The translations under genes were made by a program, and so were the position numbers. Positions 2,765 to 53,849 of a DNA stretch of 64,000 nt are shown piece by piece. Origin of the DNA: Comamonadaceae bacterium OS-4. Lineage in GTDB: Bacteria; Pseudomonadota; Gammaproteobacteria; Burkholderiales; Burkholderiaceae_C. The notes beneath the pieces are model-generated. The model had not been told where the DNA came from and did not search any database. It worked only from the letters and a program-made list of their open reading frames with translations. The stretch lies in contig AP026970.1 of assembly GCA_027924025.1 (NCBI GenBank), positions 1,510,501 to 1,574,500 of the forward strand. Reading direction: 5' to 3'. Every line of letters starts with the position of its first letter. Within the stretch, counting starts at the first letter, position 1.

Positions 2765-4273
2765 TTAGCGCGCGACTACGTCACTCGTCTGTGTGGTGGA
2801 GGTGGTGGCTGCGGAGCTGTCGGTGTCGGTAAAGCCGCCCCCCAGTGCGCGGATCAGCTGGATCTGGGTGTCCACGCTGCGGGCCGCCAGGTCCACGGCC
2901 AGCTTGCGCTGGGCCAGCACAGCGGTTTCTGCGTTGAGCACGTTCAGGTAGTTGCCCAAGCCTGCTTCGTACCGCTGCACGGCAATGGCGTAGGCGGCCT
3001 CGGCCGAGCGCTGGGCGGCTTGTTGCTCGGCCTGCTGGCGCTCGATGGCTTTGGTGGAGGTGAGCTGGTCGGCCACATCGTGCACTGCGTCGACGACTGC
3101 GGCGTTGTACGTCTCAATGGCGGCGTCCAAGTCTGCTGCTTTGCCTTTGAGGTTGGCGCGCAGGCGGCCACCTTCAAACAAGGGCAGGCGGATGGCCGGG
3201 CCCACACCCCACTGGGCGCTGCTGCTTTGCACCAGCTTGTCAAAACCGATGCTCGAGAAGCCGGCAAATGCGGTCAGGTTGATGTTGGGGTAGAACAGGG
3301 TTTTGGCGTTGTCTACATCGCGGGTCGCGGCCTCTACACGCCAGCGGGCAGCGACCACATCGGCACGCCGGCCCAGCAGGTCCAGAGGCACCGATTGCAC
3401 TTTGGTTTGTGCGGTTGCTATGGAATGAATAGCTGCTGGCGCATATTTGGTAAGCGCCAGAGGCGTATTTTGTTGCCCGGTTAAGGCGGCGAGGGCATTG
3501 ATGAGCAGGGCTTCCTGCTCTTTCAGGGCCTCGATCTGGAAGCGGGCATCAGGCAATCCGCTTTCGCTTTGCTGGAGTTCGAGCTGGGTGTCCAGGCCGG
3601 CTTGCAGGCGGTCTTTCACCAGCCGTTGGGTTTGCTGGCGCTGGGCGAGAGTGCGTTGCGCCACTTCGAGCTGGCCCTGCACCCGCATCCACTGGAAGTA
3701 GCTGCGGGCCACATTGCTGGCCAGCAGCATGCGGGCAGCCTGGGCGTCCGCCTGGGCGGCGCGGCTTTGGCCGATGGCGGCGTCCAGCGCAGCCCGGTTC
3801 TTGCCGAACAGGTCCAGCTCCCAGCTGCCGCTCATTTGCAGCGTGGCGATCTCGCGCTCGCTGCCAGCAATCGGTGCGGGCACCAAGCCGTTGCGGGTGT
3901 AGAGCTGGCGTGTGGCATCCAGCCCGGCGTTCAATTGCGGAGCGCTGGCGGCGTTGGCATTGTCTATTCCGGCCTGCACTCGCTGCACGCGGGCCTGGGC
4001 CATGCGCAGGTTGGGGTTGTTGGCCAGGGCTTGGGCGACCAGCTGGTTGAGTTGCTCATCGCCGTAGGCTTTCCACCACTGGCTGTCCAGCGCTACGCTG
4101 TCCGCAGGAATGGCTTGGGTGGACAAGCCGGCTTGCTGCGCAGCGACGGGCTTGGCCTGCGAAAAGATGCCCGAGAAGTTGGCACACGCGCTCAAAGACG
4201 CAATGGCCACCGCGCTGAGCGCAAATCGGCTCCAGCGCAGTGCTTGTGAAGTGGAAAAGATGGTGTCTTGCAT
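2765..4273 (-). CDS. NodT/OprM-family outer-membrane efflux lipoprotein
   Basis: Outer-membrane channel of the tripartite pump, 502 residues. The N-terminus carries a signal peptide ending in a lipobox (SLSAC, Cys about residue 30), so it is a lipoprotein. Two repeated OEP helical domains are visible, the first around QWWKAYGDEQLNQLVAQAL and the second around WRVEAATRDVDNAKTLFYPN. Residues LDLLGRRADVVAARW match the family motif LLxRRPDxxxAE. The stretch PLALTKYAPAAIHSIA between the two repeats is encoded by a dispersed hairpin repeat (3417-3472) that keeps the frame open. The gene starts 7 bp after the marR stop and precedes emrA. Confidence 0.94.
   Translation of the reverse strand: MQDTIFSTSQALRWSRFALSAVAIASLSACANFSGIFSQAKPVAAQQAGLSTQAIPADSVALDSQWWKAYGDEQLNQLVAQALANNPNLRMAQARVQRVQAGIDNANAASAPQLNAGLDATRQLYTRNGLVPAPIAGSEREIATLQMSGSWELDLFGKNRAALDAAIGQSRAAQADAQAARMLLASNVARSYFQWMRVQGQLEVAQRTLAQRQQTQRLVKDRLQAGLDTQLELQQSESGLPDARFQIEALKEQEALLINALAALTGQQNTPLALTKYAPAAIHSIATAQTKVQSVPLDLLGRRADVVAARWRVEAATRDVDNAKTLFYPNINLTAFAGFSSIGFDKLVQSSSAQWGVGPAIRLPLFEGGRLRANLKGKAADLDAAIETYNAAVVDAVHDVADQLTSTKAIERQQAEQQAAQRSAEAAYAIAVQRYEAGLGNYLNVLNAETAVLAQRKLAVDLAARSVDTQIQLIRALGGGFTDTDSSAATTSTTQTSDVVAR
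3417..3472 (+). repeat. Dispersed hairpin element, copy C, inside the outer-membrane factor gene
   Basis: Copy of a ~56-bp element seen six times in this window. The 5' block is GCTATGGAATGAATAGCT, followed by GCTGGCGCA, a 10-base spacer, and GCGCCAGAGGC. CTGGCGC and GCGCCAG form a perfect stem. It is antisense to the host gene and encodes a peptide alignable with that encoded by copy D in gluQ. Confidence 0.8.
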
Positions 4274-4280
4274 GGGGTGC

Positions 4281-4790
4281 TTAGCGGTCAGTAGTGGGGG
4301 CGCTCACTGCAGCGCTGTTGGCTGCCTTGATGCGTTGGGCGTTGTCCAGAATGCGGCGCAGGTAGCCTTTCAGGTTCTCGAACTCCTCAGCGCTGAAACC
4401 TTCGAGGTGGGTGTTTTGCACTTCGCACAGCACCTGCGGAATGTCGGCGGCGGCTTGCGTGCCGGCAGGAGTGAGCTGGATGTTGACCACCCGGCGGTCT
4501 TGCTCGGAGCGCACCCGCTGAACCAGGCCTTTGGCCTCCATGCGGTCCAGCAGGCGGGTGGTGGCGCCGTTGTCGAGCTCGCAGGCGCGGGCCAGTTCAG
4601 CCACGGTAGACGCTTGCTTGTTGTAGAGCTTGAAGAGCGGAATCCACTGCGCGTTGGTCAGGTCGGTGTGGGCAAGCTGATGCTCGACCGACTGGGCCAC
4701 GTGCGAGAGGATGCTGCGCATCAGGTAACCGATGCTGTCTTCCGGCCGGTAGCTGTCGGGGCGGTAAAACGAAGGGGCAATGTGTTGCAT
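4281..4790 (-). CDS. MarR-family transcriptional repressor of the efflux operon
   Basis: Winged-helix regulator of 169 residues, the EmrR/MarR type that usually represses its own drug-pump operon and lets go when it binds a hydrophobic or phenolic ligand. The winged-helix core is at about residues 35-125: TNAQWIPLFKLYNK, ASTVAELARACELDNGATTRLLDRMEAKGLV (recognition helix region), and the wing QDRRVVNIQLTPAG with the conserved D-R-R. A C-terminal dimerisation helix follows. It is the first gene of the operon, 7 bp before the outer-membrane factor, and is preceded by a strong promoter with an overlapping palindrome, which fits autorepression. Confidence 0.95.
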   Translation of the reverse strand: MQHIAPSFYRPDSYRPEDSIGYLMRSILSHVAQSVEHQLAHTDLTNAQWIPLFKLYNKQASTVAELARACELDNGATTRLLDRMEAKGLVQRVRSEQDRRVVNIQLTPAGTQAAADIPQVLCEVQNTHLEGFSAEEFENLKGYLRRILDNAQRIKAANSAAVSAPTTDR

Positions 4791-4797
4791 GGCCCGA

Positions 4798-4826
4798 ATA
4801 TTAGTTGCCTAAGCAAATATTGTCAA
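4798..4826 (-). promoter_or_regulatory. Sigma70 promoter of the marR-efflux operon
   Basis: Reading the minus strand, a perfect -35 TTGACA (4821-4826) is separated by exactly 17 bp from a -10 TAATAT (4798-4803), 7 bp before the marR start codon. This leaves a near-leaderless or very short-leader transcript. It is the best promoter match in the window. Confidence 0.75.
4805..4816. promoter_or_regulatory. Putative MarR operator palindrome
   Basis: TTGC-CTAA-GCAA lies inside the 17-bp spacer of the marR promoter. Position and symmetry fit a repressor dimer blocking RNA polymerase. That the adjacent MarR protein binds it is inference from MarR/EmrR autoregulation. Confidence 0.55.
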
Positions 4827-4857
4827 GGCTGATATTGCATGGGCAACGGAATGGGCG

Positions 4858-4882
4858 AAAAAAAGCCGGCATAAGCCGGCTC
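4858..4882 (-). terminator. Rho-independent terminator after gabD
   Basis: On the minus strand AGCCGGC-TTAT-GCCGGCT is followed by seven T residues. It lies 22 bp behind the gabD stop and marks the end of the gab catabolic operon. Confidence 0.8.
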
Positions 4883-4903
4883 TCCAAGCATGCGGGTGCA
4901 GGG

Positions 4904-6376
4904 TTATTTCAAGATGTCGCCCAGGCAGAGGTACTTGACCTCGATGTAGTCGTCCATGCCGAAGTGCGAGCCCTCGCGGCCGAGGCCGGATTGCTTGACG
5001 CCGCCGAAGGGCACATGCTCGGTGGCCAGAATGCCCACGTTCACGCCCACCATGCCGTACTCCAGCGCTTCGCCTACGCGGTAGATGCGGCCGATGTCGC
5101 GGCTGTAGAAGTAGCTGGCCAGGCCGAATTCGGTGTTGTTGGCTGCGTCAATCGCTTCTTGCTCGGTGGTGAACTTGAACACCGGCGCAAAGGGGCCGAA
5201 GGTTTCTTCGCGAGCGCACAGCATGTCGGCAGTGGCGCCGGATACGACTGTCGGCTCGAAGAACTGGCCCTGCAGGGCGTTGCCACCGGTTTCCACCTTG
5301 CCGCCCTTGGCTATAGCGTCAGCCACATGGCGTTTGACTTTTTCGATGGCCGCGTCTTCGATCAGCGGGCCTTGCACCACGCCGTCTTCAAAGCCGTTGC
5401 CGACTTTCATGGCGGCAACTTTGGCGCTGAACTTGGCCACGAACTGGTCGTACACGCCGGCCTGCACATAGAAGCGGTTGGCGCATACGCAGGTTTGACC
5501 GGCGTTGCGGTACTTGCTGGCCAGAGCGCCTTCGACCGCAGAGTCCACATCGGCGTCGTCAAATACGATGAAGGGGGCATTGCCGCCCAACTCGAGCGAC
5601 AGCTTTTTGACGGTAGGCGCGCTTTGCGCCATCAGGATGCGGCCCACTTCAGTGGAGCCGGTGAAGCTCAAGTGGCGCACCACATCGCTGGCGCAAATGA
5701 CCTTGCCCACGGCAATGGACTGATCGCTGTCCGCGGTGATCATGTTGAGCACACCGGCTGGAATGCCGGCGCGGATGGCCAGCTCGGCAGCTGCCAGCGC
5801 CGTCAGGGGAGTGAGTTCCGCGGGCTTGATGATGACCGGGCAACCGGCTGCCAAGGCGGGTGCCACCTTGCGGGTGATCATGGCGAGCGGGAAGTTCCAC
5901 GGCGTGATGGCGGCGCACACGCCAATGGGCTGCTTGATGACCATGAGGCGGCGGTTGTTGTCAAACTGGGGCAGGGTCTCACCGTTGACGCGCTTGGCTT
6001 CTTCGGCGAACCACTCCACAAAGCTGGCGCCATAGGCAATTTCGCCTTTGGCCTCGGCAAACGGCTTGCCTTGCTCGGCGGTCATGATGCGGGCCAGGTC
6101 TTCCTGGTTGGCCATCAGCAAATCAAACCACTTGCGCAGGATGATGCTGCGCTCTTTGGCGGTCTTGCTCTTCCAGGCGGGCCAGGCGGCGTTGGCAGCG
6201 GCGATGGCGGCTTCCGCATCAGCGGCACCGAGGTTGGCCACATCGGCCAGGTGCTGGCCGTTGGACGGATCAGTCACCGCAAAGCGGCTCGCGCCAGCGA
6301 CCCATTGGCCGTTGATCAGCGCATCGGTCTTGAGCAGGCTGGGGTCTTTCAGCAGGGAAAGCGGCGATGTGGACAT
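4904..6376 (-). CDS. gabD: Succinate-semialdehyde dehydrogenase (NAD(P)+)
   Basis: Aldehyde dehydrogenase of 490 residues that oxidises succinate semialdehyde to succinate, the last step of GABA breakdown. Typical GabD features are visible: the N-terminal ALINGQWV, the substrate/NADP segment ITPWNFPLAMITRK, the glycine motif FTGSTEVGR, the catalytic Glu in LELGGNAPFIVFDDAD, and the nucleophile Cys in NAGQTCVCANR with the second Cys of the GabD subfamily. Length matches E. coli GabD (482). It is the last gene of the operon gabT, transporter, ureohydrolase, gabD and is followed by a terminator at 4858-4882. The 100-bp gap before it holds copy F of the dispersed hairpin. Confidence 0.95.
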   Translation of the reverse strand: MSTSPLSLLKDPSLLKTDALINGQWVAGASRFAVTDPSNGQHLADVANLGAADAEAAIAAANAAWPAWKSKTAKERSIILRKWFDLLMANQEDLARIMTAEQGKPFAEAKGEIAYGASFVEWFAEEAKRVNGETLPQFDNNRRLMVIKQPIGVCAAITPWNFPLAMITRKVAPALAAGCPVIIKPAELTPLTALAAAELAIRAGIPAGVLNMITADSDQSIAVGKVICASDVVRHLSFTGSTEVGRILMAQSAPTVKKLSLELGGNAPFIVFDDADVDSAVEGALASKYRNAGQTCVCANRFYVQAGVYDQFVAKFSAKVAAMKVGNGFEDGVVQGPLIEDAAIEKVKRHVADAIAKGGKVETGGNALQGQFFEPTVVSGATADMLCAREETFGPFAPVFKFTTEQEAIDAANNTEFGLASYFYSRDIGRIYRVGEALEYGMVGVNVGILATEHVPFGGVKQSGLGREGSHFGMDDYIEVKYLCLGDILK

Positions 6377-6397
6377 GGTGTCTCCTCAATATACAAA

Positions 6398-6453
6398 CAA
6401 AATTGGCTGCCAGCGCCCGTGGAATATGCGCAAGCAGCTATGAAAAACGTAGC
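6398..6453 (-). repeat. Dispersed hairpin element, copy F, between the ureohydrolase gene and gabD
   Basis: Minus-strand copy starting GCTACGTTTTTCATAGCT, then GCTTGCGCA, a 10-base spacer and GGGCGCTGGCAGCC, ending in AATTTTG. GCTGC-TT-GCGC pairs with GCGC-TG-GCAGC. It begins 23 bp behind the ureohydrolase stop in the sense orientation, so it may dampen or process the transcript before gabD. Confidence 0.85.
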
Positions 6454-6476
6454 AAATTCAGGTGTGGTGCCAGCGG

Positions 6477-7421
6477 TCAGCGCACCGGTACCCCGGGTAG
6501 CACACACAGCATTTCGTACAACAGGTTGGCCCCTAGCAGGGCGGTGTTGCCCGTGGTGTCGTAGGGCGGTGATACCTCTACCAAGTCTGCCCCAACGATA
6601 TTAAGCCCACGGCAACCCCGGATGAGCTCCAGCGCCTGCGGCACGGTCAGTCCACCGATTTCAGGCGTCCCGGTACCGCCGGCGTAGGCAGGGTCAATAC
6701 CGTCAATGTCAAAGCTCAGGTAGCAGGGGGTGTTGCCCACCCGCTGGCGCACCTGCTCCATGACGGGGGCCAAGGACTGGTGCCACACCTCGTGGGCAGG
6801 TACCAGCGTAAAGCCTTGGCGGCGCGGCCAATCGAAATCATCGGCCGCATAACCGGTGCCGCGCAGGCCGATCTGGGTGACCTTGTGGCAATCAAGCAGG
6901 CCTTCTTCCACCGCGCGGCGGAAGGGGGTGCCGTGCGCAATGCGCTCGCCGAACATGTCTTCATTCACGTCGGCATGCGCATCCACATGCACCATCGCCA
7001 CCGGGCCGTGTTGGGCGGCCATGGCCCGCAGAATGGGTAGCGCAATGGTGTGGTCACCGCCCAGGGTGAGCGGTATGCAGCCGTGGCCCAGCACCTCGGC
7101 GTAATAGGCGGTGATGATGTCGACCGACTTCAACAACGAGTAGGTGTTGATGGGCACATCGCCCAGATCCGCCACTTGCAGGGCATCAAACGGCGCAGCG
7201 CCGGTGGCCATGTTGTAGGGGCGCAGCAGGCAGGATTCCGCGCGGATCTGGCGCGGGCCGAAGCGCGCACCCGGGCGGTGGCTGGTGCCGATGTCCAGCG
7301 GTACGCCAATGAAAGCCGCATTCAGCCCTTGGGCCGACGCGGCAACCGGCAGTCGCATCATGCTGGCGATGCCGCCGAAGCGCGGCATGGCATTGCCGGA
7401 AAGAGGTTGGTTCAGTTCCAT
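6477..7421 (-). CDS. Ureohydrolase, agmatinase family; probable guanidinobutyrase
   Basis: Manganese metalloenzyme of 314 residues that cleaves a guanidino group to urea plus an amine. Metal-ligand motifs are GGDHTI, HVDAHADVNED and SFDIDGIDPAYAGGTGTPE. I chose the ATG at 7421 (MELNQPLSGNAM), 17 bp behind the permease stop; an in-frame start at 7463 would overlap the permease. The family includes agmatinase, arginase and guanidinobutyrase and motifs alone do not separate them. The operon carries gabT and gabD but no putrescine aminotransferase or aminobutyraldehyde dehydrogenase, so 4-guanidinobutyrate to GABA is the reaction that completes a pathway. That assignment is inference. Confidence 0.9.
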   Translation of the reverse strand: MELNQPLSGNAMPRFGGIASMMRLPVAASAQGLNAAFIGVPLDIGTSHRPGARFGPRQIRAESCLLRPYNMATGAAPFDALQVADLGDVPINTYSLLKSVDIITAYYAEVLGHGCIPLTLGGDHTIALPILRAMAAQHGPVAMVHVDAHADVNEDMFGERIAHGTPFRRAVEEGLLDCHKVTQIGLRGTGYAADDFDWPRRQGFTLVPAHEVWHQSLAPVMEQVRQRVGNTPCYLSFDIDGIDPAYAGGTGTPEIGGLTVPQALELIRGCRGLNIVGADLVEVSPPYDTTGNTALLGANLLYEMLCVLPGVPVR

Positions 7422-7438
7422 AGGGGCTGGGCTCAGGG

Positions 7439-8257
7439 TCAGGCTTTGCGGCCGCGCAGCCACTCCAGCACCAGCAGCATGGCGGTGGTGAACAGGATCA
7501 GCAAAGTGGCCACCGCTGCAATCGTGGGCGAGATGTTTTCGCGGATGCCGGTGAACATCTGGCGCGGCAGGGTGGTCTGCTCAGCGCCGGCGAGGAACAG
7601 GGTGACCACGACTTCGTCAAACGAGGTGGCAAAGGCGAACAGCGCACCCGAAATCACACCCGGGGCAATCACCGGCAATGTGACCCGCATGAAGGTGTTG
7701 AACGGTGTTTCGCCCAGACTCAACGAGGCGCGCACCAGGTTGTGGTTGAAGTTGGCCAGGGTGGCGAGCACCGTGGTCAACACAAAGGGGGCACCCATGG
7801 CGGCGTGCACCGCAATCAAGCCCACATAGCTGTCGCTCAGACCCAAGGGGGCGAAATACAGGTAGGTGGCTACGCCGATCACGATCACCGGCACCACCAT
7901 GGGGGCGATCAGGAAAGCCATGAGCAGACCCTTGAAGCGGAACTCGGTGCGGCTCAAGCCAACAGCGGCCAGCGTGCCCAGCACGGTGGCAATCACCGTA
8001 GCGGCAGGCGCCACGATGAAGCTGTTGCGCATGGCGTTAGACCACTCAGGCGCGGTGAACAAGTGGCTGTACCACTTGGTCGACCAGCCGGGGATCGGGT
8101 AGGTCAAAAACGAGCTGCTGGAAAACGACAGCGGAATGATGGCGAGGATAGGCGCCAACAAGTAGCCCAGCACCAGCACACACACGATGCGCAGCAGCCA
8201 CCAGCCAGCCTTGTCGGCCAAGGTGAAGTAGAGGGGGAATTCAGGCAGTTTGAACAT
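7439..8257 (-). CDS. ABC transporter permease, PotC/PotI-like
   Basis: Inner-membrane permease of 272 residues with about six hydrophobic segments, for example WLLRIVCVLVLGYLLAPILA and the C-terminal LLILFTTAMLLVLEWL. The EAA-type cytoplasmic loop that docks on the ATPase is visible as VTLPVIAPGVISGALFAF. The SFDE pattern after it is typical of polyamine-type permeases. It follows the larger permease by 11 bp and precedes the ureohydrolase by 17 bp. In Pot-type transporters the two permeases form a heterodimer. Substrate inferred from context: a guanidino compound, GABA or a polyamine. Confidence 0.92.
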   Translation of the reverse strand: MFKLPEFPLYFTLADKAGWWLLRIVCVLVLGYLLAPILAIIPLSFSSSSFLTYPIPGWSTKWYSHLFTAPEWSNAMRNSFIVAPAATVIATVLGTLAAVGLSRTEFRFKGLLMAFLIAPMVVPVIVIGVATYLYFAPLGLSDSYVGLIAVHAAMGAPFVLTTVLATLANFNHNLVRASLSLGETPFNTFMRVTLPVIAPGVISGALFAFATSFDEVVVTLFLAGAEQTTLPRQMFTGIRENISPTIAAVATLLILFTTAMLLVLEWLRGRKA

Positions 8258-8268
8258 GAATGTCTTTC

Positions 8269-9510
8269 TTACGCCAAGGCCAGGTCGGCTTTGCCGATGC
8301 GGCGGTAGACGGCGTAAAGCACCAAGGTGGTGGCGAGCAGCAAGGCACCCAGCGCGCAGGCCATGCCCCAGTTGACTTCGACGTTGGTGTAGCGGGCGAT
8401 GTAGTAGCTCAGCATCTGGTCATCCGCGCCACCCAGCAGGGCCGGCGTGATGTAGTAACCGATCGACAAGATAAACACCAGCAAAGCACCGGCGCCCACA
8501 CCCGGGAAGGTCTGCGGCACATAGACCCGCATAAAGGCAGCCAGCGGTGCGCTGCCAAGGGACACGGCTGCACGCACATAGGTGGGTGGCACGCTCTTCA
8601 TCACGCTGTACAGCGGCAGGATCATGAAGGGCAGCAGGATGTGCACCATGGAGATGATCACGCCGGTGCGGTTGAACAGCAGCGCCAATGGCTCACTGAT
8701 CACACCGATACCCAGCAGCGCACCGTTGACCAGACCTTCGGACTGCAGCAACACGATCCACGCCGCCACCCGCACCAGGATGGAGGTCCAGAAAGGCACC
8801 AGCACCAGAATCATCAGCACGTTGGCCTTGCGCTCGGGCAGGGTGGAGAGCCAGTAGGCCAGCGGGTAGGCCAGCAGCAGGCACAACAGGGTGACGATAA
8901 AGCTGATCTGGAAGGTGCGCGCCAATATGCCGCCATAGGCGCGCTGGTCTTCGGGCATGCGCTCGATGTGGCCCTGCGCATCGCGTTTCAGGTCCACCGA
9001 TGCCAGCAGGTAGTCGGGCGTCCAGCGGGAGCCGTTTTTGGCAATCGCTTGCCAGAACTCAGGCTCGGCCCAGCGGGCGTCTTTGTCCAGCAACTGCTGG
9101 CGCACAGCATTGGCATCACCCTCGATAGGCAGGGCCTTGTAGGCACCCATGATCAGCGAGCGGGCGCCGGGCACCTCAGAGTTCAATCGGCGCGCCAAGG
9201 CGCCGGCATCTGCTGTGTCAGGCAGTTGCGATAAATCTTTGACCAAGGCTGCATAAGCCGCCGCTTGGGGTTGGGACGTGCGGTCCCAGTCTGCCAGGGC
9301 TTCTACCGTGGTGGGCAGGGCCTTGGCGACTTCGGGGTTCTCCACCGCGCGCATCAAGAGCGCGGCAATGGGAACCAGCAGGGTCAGGAGCAAAAACACC
9401 AGCAAGGGCAGTGTCAGGCTGAAGGCCCGCCATTTGCGGCGGGACTCCGCACGGGAAAGTGCCGCACGGAGATCGCCCGGGGGCTGGATGGCACTGGCTT
9501 GCATGGTCAT
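8269..9510 (-). CDS. ABC transporter permease, PotB/PotH-like, with a long periplasmic insertion
   Basis: The first permease of the transporter, 413 residues against about 285-320 for E. coli PotB/PotH. The extra length lies between the first helix (LTLPLLVFLLLTLLVPIAALL, about 30-50) and the second (FQISFIVTLLCLLLAYPLAYWL, about 200-220): about 150 hydrophilic residues predicted to face the periplasm. The docking loop VYVPQTFPGVGAGALLVFILSIGYYITPALLGG is typical. It lies 27 bp behind the binding-protein gene and 11 bp before the second permease. Confidence 0.92.
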   Translation of the reverse strand: MTMQASAIQPPGDLRAALSRAESRRKWRAFSLTLPLLVFLLLTLLVPIAALLMRAVENPEVAKALPTTVEALADWDRTSQPQAAAYAALVKDLSQLPDTADAGALARRLNSEVPGARSLIMGAYKALPIEGDANAVRQQLLDKDARWAEPEFWQAIAKNGSRWTPDYLLASVDLKRDAQGHIERMPEDQRAYGGILARTFQISFIVTLLCLLLAYPLAYWLSTLPERKANVLMILVLVPFWTSILVRVAAWIVLLQSEGLVNGALLGIGVISEPLALLFNRTGVIISMVHILLPFMILPLYSVMKSVPPTYVRAAVSLGSAPLAAFMRVYVPQTFPGVGAGALLVFILSIGYYITPALLGGADDQMLSYYIARYTNVEVNWGMACALGALLLATTLVLYAVYRRIGKADLALA

Positions 9511-9537
9511 GGGTTCAGGCTCCTGACGGTCTACAGA

Positions 9538-10569
9538 TTACTGGGTGGCCCAGGCAGCAAAACGCTTTTCCAGAGCTTCGCCCTGGTCCGCCCAGAAGGT
9601 GGTGTTGAACTGCAAGGCTTCCTTGGCGTTCTTGTCCGAGGTAGGCAAGTCGGCGAGTACCTTGGCGTTCAGCTTGGTCAAGGCCTTCTTGTTGGTCGGG
9701 CCGTATGCGATGTTTTGGGCGTACACCGCTTGGTTCTCGGGCTTCATGGCGAAGTTCAGGAACTTGTAGACGGCGTCTTTCTTGGCAGTGCCCTTGGGGA
9801 TGACCCAGTAGTCCAGGTCGTAAATGCCACCGGGCCAGTAGATCTGCAGGTTGCGGCCTTCGCGGTTGGCCGCATCAATACGACCGTTGTACACGGTGGA
9901 CAAGACCACATCGCCCGCCACCAGGAACTGGGGCGCCTGGGCACCGGCTTCCCACCACTGGATGTTGGGCTTGAGGGCGGTCAGCTTCTTGAAGGCGCGC
10001 TCTGCGCCGTCTTTTGTGGCCAGTACCTTGTAGATGTCAGCGGGCTTCACGCCATCGGCCAGCAAGGCGAATTCGAGGTTGTAGCGGGCGCCTTTGCGCA
10101 TGCCGCGCTTGCCGGGGATCTTGGTGGTGTCAAAGAAGTCGGCCCAGCTGGTGGGGGCTTTTTTGAGCTTGTCGCCGTTGTAGGCCATCACGGTAGACCA
10201 AACAAACAGGCCCACACCGCACTCAGTGACTGCAGACGGCAGCAGGTCGGCTTTGGGTGCGATTTTGCTGTAGTCGAGTTTTTCAAACAGACCTTCGTCG
10301 CAGCCGCGGGCCACGTCAGGAGACTCCACTTCCACCAGGTCCCAGGTCACGTTCTTGGTTTCCACCATGGCCTTGATCTTGGCTTGCTCGCCGTTGTACT
10401 CCACAGCGGTGACCTTGATGCCTTCTTTGGCAACCGGCTCGTAGTAAGCGGCCTTTTGGGCATTGGCGTTGGCGCCGCCGAAGTTCACCACGGTGATGGC
10501 GTCTTGGGCTTGAACATTCATCGCGAAGCAGGCAGCCACAGAGGCAGCAGCGATCAGGCTTTTTTTCAT
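9538..10569 (-). CDS. ABC transporter periplasmic substrate-binding protein, PotD/PotF-like
   Basis: Secreted binding protein of 343 residues with a Sec signal peptide (MKKSLIAAASVAACFAMNVQAQ) cleaved after about residue 22. The mature protein starts with the fold-typical DAITVVNFGGANANAQ. It has conserved polyamine-type segments such as TWDLVEVESPDV, VMAYNGDKLKKAPTSWADFF and GDVVLSTVYNGR. It lies between the ATPase gene (45 bp) and the large permease (27 bp). It belongs to the spermidine/putrescine-binding superfamily that also includes GABA, opine and guanidino binders, so the ligand cannot be named from sequence. Confidence 0.92.
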   Translation of the reverse strand: MKKSLIAAASVAACFAMNVQAQDAITVVNFGGANANAQKAAYYEPVAKEGIKVTAVEYNGEQAKIKAMVETKNVTWDLVEVESPDVARGCDEGLFEKLDYSKIAPKADLLPSAVTECGVGLFVWSTVMAYNGDKLKKAPTSWADFFDTTKIPGKRGMRKGARYNLEFALLADGVKPADIYKVLATKDGAERAFKKLTALKPNIQWWEAGAQAPQFLVAGDVVLSTVYNGRIDAANREGRNLQIYWPGGIYDLDYWVIPKGTAKKDAVYKFLNFAMKPENQAVYAQNIAYGPTNKKALTKLNAKVLADLPTSDKNAKEALQFNTTFWADQGEALEKRFAAWATQ

Positions 10570-10614
10570 GGAGCAATTTCCTAGATAAGTTGAGGAAGGG
10601 ACAGGGGGAAAACT

Positions 10615-11709
10615 TCAGAGCGCGTAGATGCGCGTAAACGGGGTCGGAAACTCGAGGTGCACCGTGCTGCCCATGGCGGGCGGCGTGAGGGCACACGCGT
10701 GGGTGAGCGGCAGTTTCACCGTGGCTTGCGCCTGACCAGCACCCAGTGCGCACTGCAGGCGCACATGGTCACCGTAGTACACAATGCCGGCCACTTGGGC
10801 GGCTACCGTGTTCAGCCCGGCCTGTGCCTGCACGTGCAGCGCAATCCGCTCGGGTCGCACACAGGCCTCGACCACGGCGCCTGTGGCTGCGTTGTTGACA
10901 TTGATGCCCGCCAGCCTTTGGCCTTGGCCGAGTTCGATGCACGGTGCATCAGCATTACCACCCAATGTGCCGCGCAGCACTGTGCTGTCGCCCACAAAGC
11001 CGGCCACAAAACGGTTGCTGGGGGCTTCATAGAGGCTTTGGGCATCGGCCAATTGCTGGATCACGCCTTCGTTGAACACCGCCACACGGTCGCTCATGGT
11101 CAGGGCTTCACCTTGGTCGTGGGTCACGTACACAAAGGTCACACCGAGCTGGCGGTGCAACTCTTTGAGTTCGAGCTGCATGTGTTCGCGCAACTGTTTG
11201 TCCAGCGCGCCCAGGGGCTCGTCCATCAGCACCAGTTGGGGCTCGAACACCAGCGCGCGCGCCAACGCGACACGCTGCTGCTGGCCGCCCGAGAGGCGGG
11301 TGGGCAGCCGCTCGCCCATGCCGGTCAGGCGCACCATGTCCAAGGCCTTTTGCACCCGCTTTTCCTGCTCGTCTTTGGGCACTTTGCGCACGGTGAGCGG
11401 GTAGGCCACGTTTTGTGCCACCGTCATGTGGGGGAACAGTGCGTAGTTCTGGAACACCATGCCGAAGTTGCGCTTGTGGGGCGGGGTGCGGGTGATCTGC
11501 TTGCCGTCGAGCAGGATGTCGCCTGCCGTGGGGGACTCGAACCCGGCCAGCATCATCAGGGTGGTGGTCTTGCCGGAGCCCGAGGGTCCGAGCAGGCTCA
11601 GGAATTCACCGCGCTGGATATCGAGGTTCAGCTCCCGCACCACCAGCTGTTCGCCGTCGTACGTTTTTTGTACGCCGCTAAAGCGCACCAAGGGTTCAGT
11701 AGAGGACAT
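10615..11709 (-). CDS. ABC transporter ATP-binding protein, PotA/PotG-like
   Basis: ATPase of the transporter, 364 residues. Visible are Walker A (GPSGSGKTT), the Q-loop (FQNYALFPHMT), the signature LSGGQQQRVALARAL, Walker B (LVLMDEPLGALD), the switch histidine (VTHDQ), and a C-terminal TOBE-type regulatory domain from about residue 280. I prefer the ATG at 11709 (MSSTEPLVRF); the longer frame starts with TTG at 11733. It follows gabT closely (33 bp) and precedes the binding-protein gene. Confidence 0.93.
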   Translation of the reverse strand: MSSTEPLVRFSGVQKTYDGEQLVVRELNLDIQRGEFLSLLGPSGSGKTTTLMMLAGFESPTAGDILLDGKQITRTPPHKRNFGMVFQNYALFPHMTVAQNVAYPLTVRKVPKDEQEKRVQKALDMVRLTGMGERLPTRLSGGQQQRVALARALVFEPQLVLMDEPLGALDKQLREHMQLELKELHRQLGVTFVYVTHDQGEALTMSDRVAVFNEGVIQQLADAQSLYEAPSNRFVAGFVGDSTVLRGTLGGNADAPCIELGQGQRLAGINVNNAATGAVVEACVRPERIALHVQAQAGLNTVAAQVAGIVYYGDHVRLQCALGAGQAQATVKLPLTHACALTPPAMGSTVHLEFPTPFTRIYAL

Positions 11710-11742
11710 GTGTTCTTCGAAAAGCAGATTCAAAAAAGGCGA

Positions 11743-13035
11743 TCAGGCTACGGCAGCAAAGCTGTCAGCCAGAATAGCCAAGCCTTCTTCGAGCAGTGCG
11801 TCGGGAGCGGTCAAGGGCACCAGGATGCGGATCACGTTGCCGTAGGTACCGCAGGACAGGAGGATGAGTCCGCGGCGTGCGGCTTCGGTCACCACTTTCT
11901 TGGTCAATACCGCGTCTGGGCGATGCACATCGCCAGCTTCAAACAACTCGATGGCGACCATGGCGCCCATGCCGCGCACATCACCGATGGCAGGTACCTT
12001 GGTGGCAATGGCCTTGAGCTTTTCGACCAGGAAAGCGCCCATGTCTTGGCTGCGCTGCAGGAGTTTTTCTTCTTCAAAGGCCTTCATCACGGCCAGTGCG
12101 GCGGCGCAGGCCACAGGGCTGCCGGCATAGGTACCGCCCAAGCCACCTGCCGCAGGTGCGTCAATCACATCTGCACGGCCAACCACGCCGGACAAGGGGA
12201 ATCCGCCTGCCAACGATTTGGCGGTGGTAATCAAATCAGGAGCCACAGGCCACTGCTCGCAGGCGAACCAGGTGCCGGTGCGGCCCGCGCCGGTTTGCAC
12301 TTCGTCGGCAATCAACAAAATGCCGTACTTGTCGGCCATGGCCTTGAGGCCGGAGATGAACTCGGGAGGGGCCACGTAGAAACCGCCTTCGCCCTGCACC
12401 GGTTCGACGATGAAGGCAGCTACGCGTTCTGCTTCGATGTCGTTCTTGAAAATCAGCTCCACCGAGTGCAGGGCATCCGCCACGCTCACGCCATGCAGTT
12501 CATTCGGAAACTGTGCGTGGAAGACTTCACCGGGGAAGGGGCCGAAGCCCAGCTTGTAGGGCGCCACTTTGCCGGTCAGACCCAACGTGAAGTTGGTGCG
12601 GCCGTGGTAGCCACCGGTGAAGGCAATCACGCCGGGGCGCTTGGTGTAAGCGCGCGCAATCTTGATGGCGTTTTCTACGGCCTCGGCGCCGGTGGTCAAC
12701 AACAAGCTCTTCTTAGCAAAGTTGCCGGGCGCCATGGCGTTCAGGCGTTCGCACACTTCCACATAGGGTTCGTAGGCAATCACCTGAAAGCAGGTGTGGG
12801 TGTATAGGTCGAGCTGGGCCTTGACGGCCTCAATCACCTGAGGGTGCAGATGGCCAGTGTTGAGCACCGCAATACCACCGGCGAAGTCGATGAAGCGGCG
12901 GCCTTCCACGTCCCAGAACTCGGAGTTGCGGGCGTTCTTGATGAAAATCTCGTGGGCCTGACCGACGCCGCGGGCAACGGCAGATTGGCGGCGGGCATAG
13001 AGGGCGGCATTGAGAACTTGGCGATCAGCTTGCAT
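11743..13035 (-). CDS. gabT: 4-aminobutyrate-2-oxoglutarate transaminase
   Basis: PLP-dependent class III aminotransferase of 430 residues converting GABA plus 2-oxoglutarate to succinate semialdehyde plus glutamate. The N-terminus DVEGRRFIDFAGGIAVLNTGH, the cofactor segment TTGAEAVENAIK, the Asp in IADEVQTGAGRTG and the PLP lysine in LITTAKSLAGGFPLS fit GabT (E. coli 426 residues). It is the first gene of the catabolic operon and faces the GabR-type regulator across a 174-bp divergent promoter region. Confidence 0.95.
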   Translation of the reverse strand: MQADRQVLNAALYARRQSAVARGVGQAHEIFIKNARNSEFWDVEGRRFIDFAGGIAVLNTGHLHPQVIEAVKAQLDLYTHTCFQVIAYEPYVEVCERLNAMAPGNFAKKSLLLTTGAEAVENAIKIARAYTKRPGVIAFTGGYHGRTNFTLGLTGKVAPYKLGFGPFPGEVFHAQFPNELHGVSVADALHSVELIFKNDIEAERVAAFIVEPVQGEGGFYVAPPEFISGLKAMADKYGILLIADEVQTGAGRTGTWFACEQWPVAPDLITTAKSLAGGFPLSGVVGRADVIDAPAAGGLGGTYAGSPVACAAALAVMKAFEEEKLLQRSQDMGAFLVEKLKAIATKVPAIGDVRGMGAMVAIELFEAGDVHRPDAVLTKKVVTEAARRGLILLSCGTYGNVIRILVPLTAPDALLEEGLAILADSFAAVA

Positions 13036-13126
13036 AAATGGGGTCCGGTGTAGTTGAACGGGTGGCAGAACTATAGGAACCGTTCACACAAACAACCATG
13101 TACACAATGATGAAAGTTTCGAGACA

Positions 13127-13152
13127 CTGTGCAGGTCTAAAATCCTGTACAG
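13127..13152. promoter_or_regulatory. Inverted repeat in the gabT-regulator divergent promoter
   Basis: CTGTGCAGG (13127-13135) and CCTGTACAG (13144-13152) form a dyad with one mismatch around an 8-base A/T-rich spacer that contains TAAAAT, a possible -10 for the regulator gene. The spot and symmetry suit an operator for the neighbouring GabR-type protein. No footprint-level evidence is available from sequence. Confidence 0.4.
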
Positions 13153-13209
13153 AGTTTCCCTAGATTGGTGCATTTTTGCTGCCCCTCTCGCCTGCCTTAC
13201 GATCGCGCC

Positions 13210-14628
13210 ATGCTTACACTCAGCCCCGACATTGCAACCCCCCTGGTCAGCCAGATCGTGGACGGACTGCGCGGACTGATTGCGGGCCAAGTGCTCAAGC
13301 CCGGGAGCAAGCTCCCCTCTATTCGTGCATTCGCGGTCGCCCACAACGTCAGTGTGTTCACGGTGGTCGAGGCCTATGACCGCTTGGTCGCTCAAGGGTG
13401 GCTGGTTTCGCGGGCACACTCCGGCTTTTTTGTGAAGCGCCGGGAAGAGGGCGGCAACATGGGTGCACCGGCTCGCGAGGCAGAAACGCCCCGTTTTGAT
13501 GCAAGCTGGTACCTGAAGCAGATTTTCGAAAACCGCAATCTGCCGCTCAAGCCCGGTTGCGGCTGGTTGCCGCACGACTGGTTGTTTGGCGATGCGGTGC
13601 GCCGCAGCATGCGCCAGCTCTCCAGCGATGGCTCCGAAATGGATGGTTATGGCTTGCCTTACGGTCACATGGCCTTGCGCATGATCATTGCGGAGTCGCT
13701 GGCCGAACACCAAATCTCGGCAGACGCCGGCCAGGTGCTGCTGACGCATGGCTCCAGCCAGGGGCTGGATCTGGTGGCGCGCTGCCTGCTCAAGCCAGGC
13801 GATACCGTCTTGGTGGATGACCCCGGTTACCCCAATCTCTTGTTCATGCTGCGTGTCTGGGGCGTGGACGTGGTGGGGGTTCCGCGTACCGGCACGGGTT
13901 ACGACCTCGCCGCGCTGGAGGCCATCCTGACCACGCGCAAGCCCAAGGCTTTTTTCACACAGCCGCGTTTGCAGAGCCCCACCTGCTCGGTGGCTTCAGT
14001 TGCCCAGCTGCACCGCCTGTTGCAACTGGCCGAGATGCACGATTTTGTGCTGGTCGAAAACGACATCTATGCCGACATGGATGCCACCTCGCGCACCACA
14101 TTGGCCAGTCTGGATCAGCTGCGTCGCGTGGTTTACGTGGGCAGCTATTCCAAAACCATTTCGCCCAATCTTCGCGTGGGCTACTTGTTGGCCCGGCCGG
14201 ATTTGTCGGCCCAGTTTGTGCAGCTCAAGATGATTGCAGGGCTGACGTCTTCCGATATTGCCGAGCGCATCACCTTTGGCGCGATTACTGATGGCCGCTG
14301 GCGCAAGCACCTGAAGTCCCTGCGGGACCGCTTGGGCGAAGCACACCGCCAAGTGAGCCGCCGGTTGTTGGGCCTGGGCTTTGAGATATTCCATGAGCCC
14401 GAGGCCGGCATGTACCTGTGGGCCCGCCACCCCGACATCGCGGACAGCGCCGTACTGTCGCAGTCAGCGACCCAAGAAGGCATCATGTTGGGGCCTGGCC
14501 AGTTGTTTCTGGTGGAGCCCCGGCCGACCGGATGGCTGCGCTTCAATGTGGCGTTTTGCGCAGACGAGCGCTTGTGGCGCTTTCTGGACCAGCGCATTTT
14601 GGTGGGACAAAGCGCCGAGCACGCCTGA
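13210..14628 (+). CDS. MocR-family PLP-dependent transcriptional regulator (GabR/PdxR type)
   Basis: Regulator of 472 residues fusing a GntR-type winged helix (about residues 1-75: VSQIVDGLRGLIAGQ, KLPSIRAFAVAHNVSVFTVVEAYDRL) to an aminotransferase-fold sensor (about 100-470). PLP-site residues are visible: DDPGYPN, ENDIYADM and the Schiff-base lysine in YVGSYSKTISPNLRVGYL. I chose the ATG at 13210 because it begins at the winged helix; the frame upstream lacks family similarity. GabR activates gabT and gabD in Bacillus when PLP and GABA bind. The divergent position before gabT suggests the same job here. Confidence 0.92.
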   Translation: MLTLSPDIATPLVSQIVDGLRGLIAGQVLKPGSKLPSIRAFAVAHNVSVFTVVEAYDRLVAQGWLVSRAHSGFFVKRREEGGNMGAPAREAETPRFDASWYLKQIFENRNLPLKPGCGWLPHDWLFGDAVRRSMRQLSSDGSEMDGYGLPYGHMALRMIIAESLAEHQISADAGQVLLTHGSSQGLDLVARCLLKPGDTVLVDDPGYPNLLFMLRVWGVDVVGVPRTGTGYDLAALEAILTTRKPKAFFTQPRLQSPTCSVASVAQLHRLLQLAEMHDFVLVENDIYADMDATSRTTLASLDQLRRVVYVGSYSKTISPNLRVGYLLARPDLSAQFVQLKMIAGLTSSDIAERITFGAITDGRWRKHLKSLRDRLGEAHRQVSRRLLGLGFEIFHEPEAGMYLWARHPDIADSAVLSQSATQEGIMLGPGQLFLVEPRPTGWLRFNVAFCADERLWRFLDQRILVGQSAEHA

Positions 14629-14711
14629 GGGCGGATTCCGGCGCGCCAAAGCGCATCGCGGGCGGCGATAATAGTGGGTTCTATTGATCCACCACTCGAA
14701 GAAATTCCGTC

Positions 14712-17363: not shown

Positions 17364-17390
17364 GGGCTTTGATCTAGCACGGTTTAAGCT

Positions 17391-17446
17391 GCTATCAAAA
17401 TGAGAGCTGCTCGCGCACACTTTATGGGCGCTAGCAGCTCTTTTTT
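17391..17446 (+). repeat. Dispersed hairpin element, copy A, behind alaS
   Basis: GCTATCAAAATGAGAGCT, GCTCGCGCA, a 10-base spacer, GGGCGCTAGCAGCTC and six T residues. AGAGCTGCT pairs with AGCAGCTCT. It starts 27 bp behind the alaS stop in the sense orientation. Confidence 0.85.
17403..17446 (+). terminator. Rho-independent terminator of alaS, formed by hairpin copy A
   Basis: A 9-bp perfect stem (AGAGCTGCT, 17403-17411, with AGCAGCTCT, 17433-17441), extended inward by GCGC pairing, is followed by a T run 17441-17446. The T run abuts the start codon of the next gene. Confidence 0.75.
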
Positions 17447-18333: not shown

Positions 18334-18356
18334 GCGCTGGCTAATGACTCAAATCA

Positions 18357-18366
18357 ATATCGATAT
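18357..18366. promoter_or_regulatory. Palindrome in the thioredoxin-fpr divergent region
   Basis: ATATCGATAT, a perfect 10-bp palindrome inside an A/T-rich stretch of the divergent intergenic region. A possible protein-binding site; no family match recognised. Confidence 0.25.
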
Positions 18367-18466
18367 AACAGGCTGCAGGGGTATGAAGTTTTACAATATA
18401 GGGTTTCGCCCTAGGCCATTGTGGCCGAACCGGTGTTCCCCATTCCGACCCTGAAGCAAGGCCCCC

Positions 18467-36141: not shown

Positions 36142-36206
36142 CACTTCGTGTACTGCGCTGCCCCCCAAGGGGGCCTTCGCGCCTTGGGGCGGCCCGGCGG
36201 CGCTCA
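36142..36206. repeat. GC-rich hairpin repeat upstream of gluQ
   Basis: A C-rich/G-rich block in which CCCCAAGG (36163-36170) pairs with CCTTGGGG (36182-36189) around a loop containing TTCGCG, followed by CGGCCCGGCGGCGCTCA. I recall near-identical intergenic blocks in many Comamonadaceae genomes (REP-like), but only one copy is in this window. Confidence 0.5.
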
Positions 36207-36217
36207 ATCGGCTCGAG

Positions 36218-47626: not shown

Positions 47627-48076
47627 ATGGCACGTCTTTTTGCTACCAAATTCATAGCTGCTTGCGTAATCTCTGCGGGCGCTATGGCGCCTTTTTATGC
47701 TTATTCGCAGACTGACGCTTCCGCGTTCAGTGCCATCAGCGCCATGCCGGTGGCCTCGGTTGTCGGTGCGAGCGCGGGTGCGGTGATCGCCATTCCGGTG
47801 GCGTTTTCCACCGCAGGCGCGGTGTTGGTGGTGAAGGGCGTAGAGGCATCTGCCAAAGGCACGGTCTATCTGCTGGAGCGCATGTCAGATGGCGCGCGGG
47901 CCAGCGTAGAGGTGTCGGGCAAAGCGGCCTCCGGCGCTTCCAACGCCGTGGGCACCTCTGTTTTTGTCAGCGTGATTAGCACCGGCGTGGTGTTGTCGGT
48001 GGCGGGCAAGGTGATTGCGTTTGTGCCTAACGAAATCGGCAAAGCTTTGTTGCACAACGTACGCGTGAGCCAGTGA
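47627..48076 (+). CDS. Secreted small Ala/Val/Ser-rich protein of unknown function
   Basis: 149 residues. The N-terminal signal peptide (LFATKFIAACVISAGAMAPFYAYSQ) is followed by a mature part rich in small residues with two long hydrophobic stretches (VVGASAGAVIAIPVAFSTAGAVLVV and SVFVSVISTGVVLSVAGKVIAFV), so it may be membrane-associated. I recognise no family. The signal-peptide core is encoded by the dispersed hairpin copy E (47642-47700). Its stop overlaps the GTG start of the DUF2145 gene by 4 bp, so the two work as a pair. Confidence 0.8.
   Translation: MARLFATKFIAACVISAGAMAPFYAYSQTDASAFSAISAMPVASVVGASAGAVIAIPVAFSTAGAVLVVKGVEASAKGTVYLLERMSDGARASVEVSGKAASGASNAVGTSVFVSVISTGVVLSVAGKVIAFVPNEIGKALLHNVRVSQ
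47642..47700 (+). repeat. Dispersed hairpin element, copy E, encoding a signal-peptide core
   Basis: GCTACCAAATTCATAGCT, GCTTGCG, a 9-base spacer, CGGGCGCTATGGCGCC and TTTTTATGC. It shares the 16-base block TTCATAGCTGCTTGCG and the exact spacing to CGGGCGCT with copy F. It lies in sense orientation within codons 6-25 of the host gene. Confidence 0.75.
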
Positions 48077-53200: not shown

Positions 53201-53786
53201 GCCGATTGAAGAGCTCAAAGACTCCCGCGAGCCCCAGTTGCTGGCCGGCATCGTGACCGAGTTGCGGGTGATCAACGGGCAGCGCGGCAAACTGGCCCTG
53301 TTCAAGCTCGACGATAAATCCGCCATGATCGAGGCGCGCGCCAGCGAGGCGCTGCTCAATACCTACAAAGACTTGCTGAAGGACGATGAGCTCATCATCG
53401 TGGAAGGCAAGGCCATGCCGGATCGCTTCTCGGGCGGTATGCAATTGACGGTGCAGCACATCTGGAGCCTGGAGCAGGCACGCTGCAAGTTTGGCAAGTA
53501 CTTGCGTGTACCGGTGAAGCTCGATGCCCAGGGGCGTGCGCCCGATGTGGCGGCGTTGGTGCGGGAATTTCCGGCGGTGCGCGAAACAAGCGAACATGGG
53601 GAAACGGTGCGCGGCCTGTCGGTCCGGCTGCAGCTGGTGTGCAGTGCGGCAGGCGCCCATCCGGTGGAGCAGGCAGCGGCCGATTTGCATCTGGGCGAAG
53701 CCGCCAAGTTCTACCCCACCGACGCAGCCCTTGCGAGCTGGCGTGCGCAGGCCAATGGGGGAGTGGCCGCGATTGCCTACGACTGA
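50217..53786 (+). CDS. dnaE: DNA polymerase III alpha subunit
   Basis: Replicative polymerase of 1189 residues (family about 1160). The PHP domain is at the N-terminus (FVHLRLHTEFSVVDG). The polymerase active site has GPGRGSGAGSLVAYAL and PDFDIDFCQTNRN (the Asp pair). GGYSLGGADLLRRAMGKKK and FNKSHAAAYSLLAY are fingers-domain blocks. An OB domain follows (LLAGIVTELRVINGQRGKLALFKLDD). Start at 50217 (MFVHLRLH) fits all dnaE proteins; the frame further upstream overlaps the divergent gene. Confidence 0.98.
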   Translation: MFVHLRLHTEFSVVDGTTRIDDVIKMAAKDGQPALAITDLNNLFGAIKFYKGGRGKGVKPVIGAEIILEGLGGDATAVTRIILLVQNKQGYLNISELIARAFTQNVVKNQAVIKMAWLKELNEGLIALSGAQAGPVGQALVQGDTARAHDVALQLAGVFPHRFYIELQRAGRADDEAHVVAAVKLAARMKLPVVATHPIQFAEQDDFEAHEARICIADGEILSNPKRVRRFTREQYFKSAAQMEELFADIPSAIANTIEIAKRCSLTLVLGKPQLPAFPTPEVNGQRMTPEEYFRYASFEGLNERMVHLYPKEEERAAEMPRYVERLEFELGTILKMGFPGYFLIVGDFINWAKNNGCPVGPGRGSGAGSLVAYALKITDLDPLRYNLLFERFLNPERVSMPDFDIDFCQTNRNLVIDYVKDKYGKDAVSQIATFGTMAARGVVRDVGRVLDMSYTFCDGISKLIPNKPGTNVTLQLPPTDGKKSDKYVYATEAEPILAEREAKEEDVKTLLEMARKLEGMTRNIGMHAGGVLIAPGKLTDFCPLYQQPGSESAVSQYDKDDVEAIGLVKFDFLGLATLTILEIAAEFIRKRHPGQEKFAYENLPLDDAKVYKLFSEGKTEAVFQFESRGMQGMLRDAKPSRLEDLIALNALYRPGPMDLIPSFVARKHGREVVEYPHPAVAEMLSETYGIMVYQEQVMQTAQILGGYSLGGADLLRRAMGKKKKEEMDEHRGIFRAGAFKTHGIPEAKADEVFDLMEKFAGYGFNKSHAAAYSLLAYHTGWIKVHYTAEFFCANMTVEMDDTDKLKVLFEDAEKMGLSFEPPNINRGFYRFEPISNKEIRYGLGAVKGTGEQAILAIVAAREGRGPTEEAGPFKSLFDFARRVDRSRMNKRCVEALIKAGAFDSLHLNRAELVASMDRAFEFAAASAANANQVGLFDMGGDDDHGSSTQEPDLVEVTPWGVKERLTQEKTAVGFYLSGHLFDEVATEVRKFARRPIEELKDSREPQLLAGIVTELRVINGQRGKLALFKLDDKSAMIEARASEALLNTYKDLLKDDELIIVEGKAMPDRFSGGMQLTVQHIWSLEQARCKFGKYLRVPVKLDAQGRAPDVAALVREFPAVRETSEHGETVRGLSVRLQLVCSAAGAHPVEQAAADLHLGEAAKFYPTDAALASWRAQANGGVAAIAYD

Positions 53787-53793
53787 TTTTTGA

Positions 53794-53849
53794 TGAAAAA
53801 GGCTGCCGGCGCTCTAGAACGTTGCGCCAGTAGCTATCAAAAACAGAGC
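53794..53849 (-). repeat. Dispersed hairpin element, copy B, behind tolA
   Basis: Minus-strand copy: GCTCTGTTTTTGATAGCT, ACTGGCGCA, spacer, GAGCGCCGGCAGCC and five T residues. CTGGCGC pairs with GCGCCGG. It starts 13 bp behind the tolA stop in the sense orientation and lies between convergent dnaE and tolA, so it may end the tol transcript. Confidence 0.85.

Follow-up and report, generated by a model that had tools for sequence, protein, structure and literature searches.

What are the six short, similar hairpin sequences scattered over a 64,000-nucleotide stretch of a Rhodoferax genome, and how did they come to be there? The stretch, called the window below, covers positions 1510501-1574500 of contig C1 (AP026970.1) of Comamonadaceae bacterium OS-4 (GCA_027924025.1), whose genome of 4,068,203 bases lies on two contigs and is designated G000 among the numbered genomes (G) and loci (L) compared here. 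The reading favoured here, with moderate confidence, is that the sequences are copies of an old element resembling repetitive extragenic palindromic (REP) sequences, likely a portable terminator and/or binding site, which was probably once multiplied by a group-1 REP-associated tyrosine transposase (RAYT) or its ancestor.

An initial annotation had listed the six copies, labelled A to F, and all of them are found at the positions and on the strands it gave, in excess of chance. The pattern GCT-N11-AGCT-NN-T-N-GCG matches the window exactly at the six copies only; with one mismatch allowed, it gives nine matches against 2.25 expected, a number reached by none of 100 shuffles. A weight matrix built from 103 genome copies, the six window copies included, likewise finds exactly these six, which score 56-82 bits, and 203 kb of reversed G000 sequence yields no score above 8 bits. 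The copies are distributed as follows:

3413-3479, plus strand: copy C, 64.8 bits; antisense and in frame within a NodT-type outer-membrane efflux gene
6391-6457, minus strand: copy F, 82.4 bits; between the agmatinase gene and gabD, both on the minus strand
17387-17453, plus strand: copy A, 75.7 bits; directly 3′ of alaS, ahead of a thioredoxin-like gene
35620-35686, plus strand: copy D, 74.7 bits; antisense and in frame within gluQRS
47638-47704, plus strand: copy E, 65.3 bits; between a CheA-like gene and a divergently oriented short open reading frame (ORF), overlapping the predicted 5′ end of the ORF
53787-53853, minus strand: copy B, 56.4 bits; between the convergent genes dnaE and tolA

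The family extends well beyond the window. An exact pattern, in which the GCT-N11-AGCT core is extended with GCGC-N6-14-GCGC, matches the whole genome 118 times and its reversed form not once. The scan with a covariance model built from the six copies, as the initial annotation had suggested, returns at least 150 genome matches rather than chance hits alone, all listed at E 0.014 or better; among the matches listed, 149 lie on the 3.76-Mb contig C1 and one on the 305-kb contig C2. Since the exact pattern recovers 26 of the 32 copies found by the matrix in 203 kb of G000, the genome is estimated to hold about 150 copies or somewhat more. The expectation of hundreds per genome is thus borne out literally in relatives, two of which have 253 and 291 exact matches, and only in part in the source genome. 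In the family as defined by GTDB, 18 of 200 genomes carry at least 40 exact matches (maximum 307; highest reversed-control count 22), as do six of the 41 genomes of the genus, its own included (46-291). Besides G000, none of 150 genomes of the order exceeds ten; one of them, G349, has ten matches (control 0), but without the A/T centre described below. Absence is overstated by these counts because the exact pattern misses variants, such as the one (GTCTGCGC..GGGC) that escapes it in G125 and G213. Consistent with the similar sequences in Comamonadaceae mentioned in the initial annotation, the matrix gives a match above 10 bits in 17 of 80 named gabD loci, from Acidovorax, Polaromonas, Simplicispira, Giesbergeria, Rhodoferax and unnamed metagenome-assembled genomes. 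In several genera other than Rhodoferax, a copy of 19-60 bits stands directly 3′ of gabD (L155, L192, L195, L205, L209 and L213, at about 5476-5580), while that of the source genome stands ahead of gabD. A search of plasmids with copy F returned two records (Rhodoferax antarcticus and Delftia), and a search of phages gave no match. The window matches no Rfam family at gathering score.

The anatomy of the element is that of a fixed unit with two overlapping palindromes. In a logo of 103 distinct copies, from which five matches without a full 5′ box were left out, the unit spans positions -3 to 63, where position 1 is the G of GCTA, with sharp ends and flat flanks: AWTTGCTAYNAWWWNRRTAGCTGCTNGCGCANWWTYYAYGRGCGCYAGMGGCYNWTTTGRYYNNWAA. 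The element first described as about 56 bp is therefore a real family, with a unit of 66-67 bp. Its first part (positions 1-17) is a 17-bp palindrome, the box GCTAY-N7-RTAGC with an A/T centre that avoids TpA (AAA 37, TTT 27, AAT 24, ATT 16, TAT 3, ATA 2, and neither TAA nor TTA, among 114 copies). The second part is an imperfect stem of 11 pairs (16-26/38-48) closing an 11-base loop, and bases 16-17 are common to the stem and the first palindrome. The T-rich end of the initial annotation corresponds to an A/T tract at positions 51-54, 3′ of the stem, which is mostly T and reads AAAA in some copies. Positions 13-16 read ATAG in 58 of the 114 copies, GGAG in 25, GTAG in 17 and AGAG in 10, so that no constant GT[AG]G tetranucleotide is present. 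Mean GC content is 46%. Copies are single, neither paired nor clustered: among 32 in 203 kb of G000, none are less than 791 bp apart.

Compensatory changes in the stem had been put forward as the argument for a selected structure. Once more copies are aligned, these changes exceed shuffles only weakly, and covariation is rejected as the main structural proof. In the alignment A2, selected and built with the covariance model, 82% of stem cells are paired and 18 cells are doubly changed against 8.2 +/- 2.7 in shuffles, distributed over five pairs against 3.6; the covariation score is 0.106 against 0.083, a value that none of 500 shuffles attains. In the 114 copies selected by the matrix, Watson-Crick pairing surpasses that of shuffles (p<0.05) at no single stem pair, while over the entire helix pairing reaches 999 of 1254 cells, where shuffles give 986.8 +/- 4.1 and 2 of 1000 attain that count. 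In the first palindrome, pairing at the variable inner positions is no higher, and mostly lower, than in shuffles, and the strongest couplings join positions a few bases apart. Together, the weak covariation of the stem and the short range of these couplings indicate that the symmetry is kept mainly as sequence.

Placement relative to genes is far from even. The 114 copies comprise 32 tandem sense, 21 tandem antisense, 22 convergent and five divergent ones, 29 within predicted genes and five unclassed; 53 thus lie between tandem genes, and convergent placement differs from divergent (p=0.0015). Among the classed intergenic copies, 75 of 80 face at least one 3′ end of a neighbour. Co-directional upstream genes stop within -3 to 25 bp of the element in 37 of 56 cases, with seven more overlapping it, and opposing downstream genes stop within 25 bp in 40 of 44. 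At least five Ts are found in a share of 0.34 and 0.45 of the copies behind co-directional genes (>E> and >E<, respectively), 0.14 of the tandem antisense copies (<E<) and 0.4 of the five divergent ones; within genes the share is 0 of 14 in sense and 0.40 of 15 in antisense orientation. The T-run thus distinguishes copies behind a co-directional gene from sense copies in genes (p=1.6e-4), and stem energy distinguishes the former from other intergenic copies (p=0.03). The absence of T-runs from sense in-gene copies fits a terminator role, though indirectly: it is expected if premature termination is selected against, coding constraint being a possible alternative.

Copies also occur inside genes. 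The 29 of 114 are divided into 14 sense and 15 antisense copies, some at gene ends, and in-gene copies use at least four reading frames (24 of the 103 copies). The genes concerned in the window, together with two that end ahead of intergenic copies, are:

2765-4273, minus strand: NodT-type outer-membrane factor, host of copy C (TIGR01845, 377 bits; PF02321)
35176-36225, minus strand: tRNA glutamyl-Q(34) synthetase GluQRS, host of copy D (NF004313, 448 bits)
14712-17363, plus strand: alaS, ending ahead of copy A (TIGR00344)
6477-7463, minus strand: agmatinase gene, ending ahead of copy F (TIGR01230, 205.6 bits)

In the case of GluQRS, matrix-positive copies occupy the same place in eight of 14 genomes (G000, G218, G205, G232, G125, G213, G010 and G120, of which G010 and G120 belong to other genera than G000), and G224, G226, G227, G216, G233 and G003 have none there. 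The segment measures 13 residues in G224 and G226, 34 in G125, G120 and G010, and 40 in G000, with intermediate lengths in G227, G216 and G233; compared with G224 and G226, copies thus amount to a net insertion of at least 21 residues. A glycerophosphodiester phosphodiesterase (GDPD) protein similarly has 22 residues at a place that measures two in the solved homologue 2otd, a net insertion of about 20. Of the 17 genes with internal copies that could be assigned to Pfam, six, as a bare count of genes (loci L087, L102, L082, L104, L105 and L002 taken together), act in DNA replication or repair: an error-prone DNA polymerase (two copies), UvrD, an AddA-like helicase, MutS, MutL and a protein of the uracil-DNA glycosylase (UDG) superfamily. 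REPs within DNA-repair genes are reported for unrelated REP families in the available part of PMC3733652, and this odd occurrence is repeated here.

The copies are old, vertically inherited, common to several species and constrained at key positions. Eleven sites of G000 (copies A, C, D and F of the window and seven in L234 and L235) were compared with their orthologues, and G205, G218 and G232 each carry a copy in the matching position at all eleven; in G232, two sites are anchored on one flank only and one of these lies 125 bp off. The site of copy C is occupied in these three and by weaker variants in G125 and G224; that of copy A in the same three and in G224, G125 and G213; and that of copy F in the three and in G227, with no copy in the alignment of G216, G125, G224 and G213. 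The comparison of orthologous loci for presence or absence, also proposed at the outset, thus gave full occupancy in the three nearest relatives: no recent empty site was seen among the 11, nor any flanking duplications. In the comparison of G000 with G218, mean change is 4% at the 26 most informative positions, 22% at the 22 least informative and 9% in the flanks, genes included; key positions therefore look selected. Within G000, identity between any two of the 103 copies stays at or below 84%, and low-information positions have reached saturation, at a difference of 67%; nothing thus points to a recent burst. Gene conversion between copies is hinted at by the loop of copy F, in which 6 of 11 bases differ between G000 and G218, but it is not claimed, because mean change at low-information positions does not surpass that of the most diverged flanks. 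As regards other candidate sites, an indel at L234:13808, which at first resembled an empty site, was left aside, and L235:7856 and L234:3515 were discarded because of runs of N in G218.

If the element has been mobile, a plausible enzyme is a Y1 transposase (PF01797, RAYT), in line with the initial suggestion of a REP-like element mobilised by an enzyme encoded elsewhere. G000 has a single PF01797 match, of 27.9 bits, whose best NCBIfam name, below cut-off, is REP-associated tyrosine transposase, and of 20 family genomes that carry 16-307 exact copies, 19 have a PF01797 match. An antisense GCT..GATRTG.CCC, corresponding to the left box of a degenerate or full copy of the element, follows the transposase stop codon in 21 of 27 loci from 14 genera; it stands ahead of a TGTCCCC-type repeat, and in G135 it overlaps the stop. 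At 14 of the 27 loci, the score of the element-core matrix is in the top 3% of local windows. Fuller copies lie behind the transposase in G232, G227 and G120, G010 and G190 have copies a short way upstream of the gene, and another RAYT, in G213, has copies on both sides, 58 bp upstream and 17 bp downstream. Within Rhodoferax, six motif-bearing loci correspond to genomes with 11-291 exact copies and three motif-free loci to genomes with none. The linked transposase has 230-246 aa, GGGG(T/A)C-type flanking repeats and, in most genera, a YIDLNP motif, by which features it is apparently of the RAYT group-1 or TIRYT type.

Altogether, these findings suggest a model in which sense transcription of the element would allow its hairpin and T-run to end transcription, the element would have been multiplied in the past by the linked transposase or its ancestor, and, in the source lineage, it would have ceased to move and been retained as a terminator and/or binding site. 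Several observations weigh against this model. On the terminator side, sense copies only weakly outnumber antisense ones between tandem genes (32:21, p=0.17), and the difference in T-run between >E and <E copies is likewise weak (p=0.09); hairpin and T-run hold for the group, yet at least five Ts occur in only 0.34-0.45 of sense intergenic copies. With z from -0.8 to -4.1, RNA folds of single copies do not in every case improve on those of shuffles. In window positions 1-19000, a generic scan for terminators finds 15 sites against 17.9 in shuffles; of the three copies there, it meets C in part only and misses A and F, its loop limit of 8 making it blind to an 11-base loop. On the side of insertion, in-gene copies in SelO, MutS, PutA and NodT entail little or no net change in length, which simple insertion does not explain. 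On the side of the enzyme, PF01797 is found in 39 of 41 genus genomes regardless of copy number, and its presence is rejected as a predictor of it; the main counter-case is G141, with 121 exact copies and no PF01797 match. The core-matrix score falls outside the top 3% at 13 of the 27 loci, and the motif is missing behind the transposase of G009 (54 copies) and of G088 (16). When 12 further PF01797 loci of the genus were scanned with the model, a match lay nearby in only two, L065 and L068, and L065 is an IS200-type gene. The catalytic Y---NP, furthermore, reads F---HP in G205, G232 and G227, and Y---HA in G000 and G218.

Two of these points have companion observations. The copies in SelO, MutS, PutA and NodT (L050, L105, L008 and window 3413-3479) look as if they replaced part of the gene rather than lengthened it; among them, the PutA match (L008:489, 27.9 bits) is probably due to chance. 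The IS200/IS605 TnpA beside the element in G221 (L065) was judged a coincidence, the two lying some 460 bp apart.

Another proposal, possible though put forward with some diffidence, is that the element could be the repeat partner that RAYT group 1, or subclass 2.1 (TIRYT), has so far lacked, and that the tyrosine-less transposase of the copy-richest Rhodoferax lineage, under purifying selection, might be a host protein binding 150-300 terminator-like sites. In the accessible part of PMC6006769, subclass 2.1 equals RAYT group 1, probably corresponds to TIRYT and has a median length of 238 aa, and automatic and manual searches are reported to have found no REP-like sequences for it. The species in which the tyrosine is lacking (G205, G232 and G227) are element-rich. 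Transposase dN/dS is 0.04-0.19 over five pairs, with 0.04 for G000-G218 and dS saturated (1.4-2.1) in all other pairs. The RAYT genes at L061 and L227-L230 (G000, G205, G232, G218 and G227) are intact, despite F for tyrosine in three of them. Element and RAYT would form a testable enzyme-substrate pair, and the proposal joins two published observations that were unexplained, a large RAYT group without repeats and the orphan motif pairs of Polaromonas and Acidovorax described below.

The best-surviving alternative, which nevertheless appears rather doubtful, is that the element would be the site of a sequence-specific host DNA-binding protein, acting in nucleoid or chromosome organisation or being the domesticated RAYT itself, with the hairpin incidental. 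The conservation of the stem mainly by sequence, the couplings between near positions and the avoidance of TpA at the centre, as in A-tracts, are in keeping with it, as are the near-exclusive occurrence of the listed matches on the larger contig and the intact, slowly evolving transposase of which three versions lack the tyrosine. However, T-run and stem strength vary with orientation to the gene, which goes beyond the need of a double-stranded site, and the helix keeps its small pairing excess over shuffles. Ordinary intrinsic terminators that are immobile and alike by resemblance only would account for a hairpin with a T-run near stop codons, as in the co-directional upstream genes above. 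Such terminators would have no reason to share a 17-bp box ahead of the stem, conserved sequence at both ends and a fixed 66-bp unit, or to appear as net insertions in GluQRS and GDPD; this alternative is improbable, since both the in-gene copies and the fixed unit speak against it. Descent as a miniature inverted-repeat transposable element (MITE) from an insertion sequence with a DDE transposase, an early suggestion that suits a short, high-copy, dispersed element, is highly improbable, as the logo of 103 copies has no terminal inverted repeat and neither a target duplication nor a clean empty site was found, insertion sequences with matching ends not having been searched for.

Returning to the favoured reading of an old REP-like element, comparison with known systems shows both likeness and difference; the papers cited were available in part. 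Like GTAG-type REPs and their RAYTs, the element is an imperfect palindrome in more than 100 copies at gene 3′ ends, between tandem and convergent ORFs (PMC2817692, PMC3733652, PMC6006769, PMC8266576), with some copies in genes, including DnaE2 and the UvrD/Rep helicase, and at many of the loci compared it stands, in full or degenerate form, beside a Y1 transposase gene. Its 11-pair stem also falls under the description of an imperfect hairpin of 21-65 nt used for such REPs. It differs in its 66-67 bp and two parts, in the lack of a constant GTAG at the hairpin foot, in occurring singly rather than in inverted pairs or clusters (REPINs, or bacterial interspersed mosaic elements, BIMEs), and in having a transposase apparently from a group without a known REP. 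With the TIRYT/TIRtron systems (subclass 2.1, RAYT group 1), it apparently shares the linked 230-246-aa transposase with GGGG(T/A)C-type flanks (PMC3733652, PMC6006769). In contrast to these systems, the dispersed element is distinct from the GGGGWSAS repeat, which its left box abuts behind the gene.

Palindromic elements of Rickettsia occur as in-frame copies in many unrelated proteins, a property common to both; they differ in sequence and host, and here a transposase gene is linked to the element. They are named in the available part of PMC3733652. The beta-proteobacterial repeat element (BRE) is likewise dispersed in Comamonadaceae and Bordetella and mostly intergenic, but is about 90 bp long, 69% GC, often tandem and present in at most 29 copies (PMC3110155, in part); identity with it is rejected by its size, GC and arrangement, that is, by described features rather than by sequence comparison.

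The closest precedents come from Tong and colleagues 2017 (PMC5217627, in part), who describe two motif pairs. For Polaromonas naphthalenivorans they give ATAGCT(N)22CAAAAG, with 125 copies of which 101 are intergenic and 18 in genes; for Acidovorax ebreus they give GCTTAT(N)5AAGCG, with 114 copies of which 44 are convergent and 4 divergent. The former matches positions 13-18 and 41-46 in letters and spacing and the latter matches the loop, in a similar gene context, so that both would fit as parts of the element. In the 80 named loci, the Acidovorax pair has two matches, both within elements of Acidovorax sp. NO-1, and the Polaromonas pair has none, its identification thus depending on spacing and letters. 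The available part of that paper presents them as unexplained pentamer pairs, with no element and no transposase link. The initial remark that the element has no known name agrees with this publication of parts of it as nameless motif pairs, and neither a name nor a transposase link was found in the literature searched, which left out most subscription papers. A 12-mer search of papers gave nothing recognised as relevant among the matches listed, and the part of the Rhodoferax ferrireducens genome paper available (PMC2755013) describes no such repeat.

Other repeats were met nearby. A second dispersed repeat, GC-rich, about 80-100 bp long and with a CCCCC..GGGGG core, lies at about 36107-36216 of the window and resembles the published BRE in size and GC, a likeness of description rather than sequence. 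It forms insertions in G205 and G232 at L234:12553 and in G205 at L235:5462 and 15632 (L271, L273 and L277), and it is found in one Rhodoferax species and lacking from the next at otherwise matching sites. The indels at L234:12553, L235:5462 and L235:15632 were accordingly rejected as empty sites of the element, since their GC-rich sequence is unlike it. Another repeat, at L235:7107-7352, contains the stretches 7145-7187 and 7280-7340, which match dozens of places in G205, G232, G218, G125 and G227, often at 90-100% identity over 34-60 bases.

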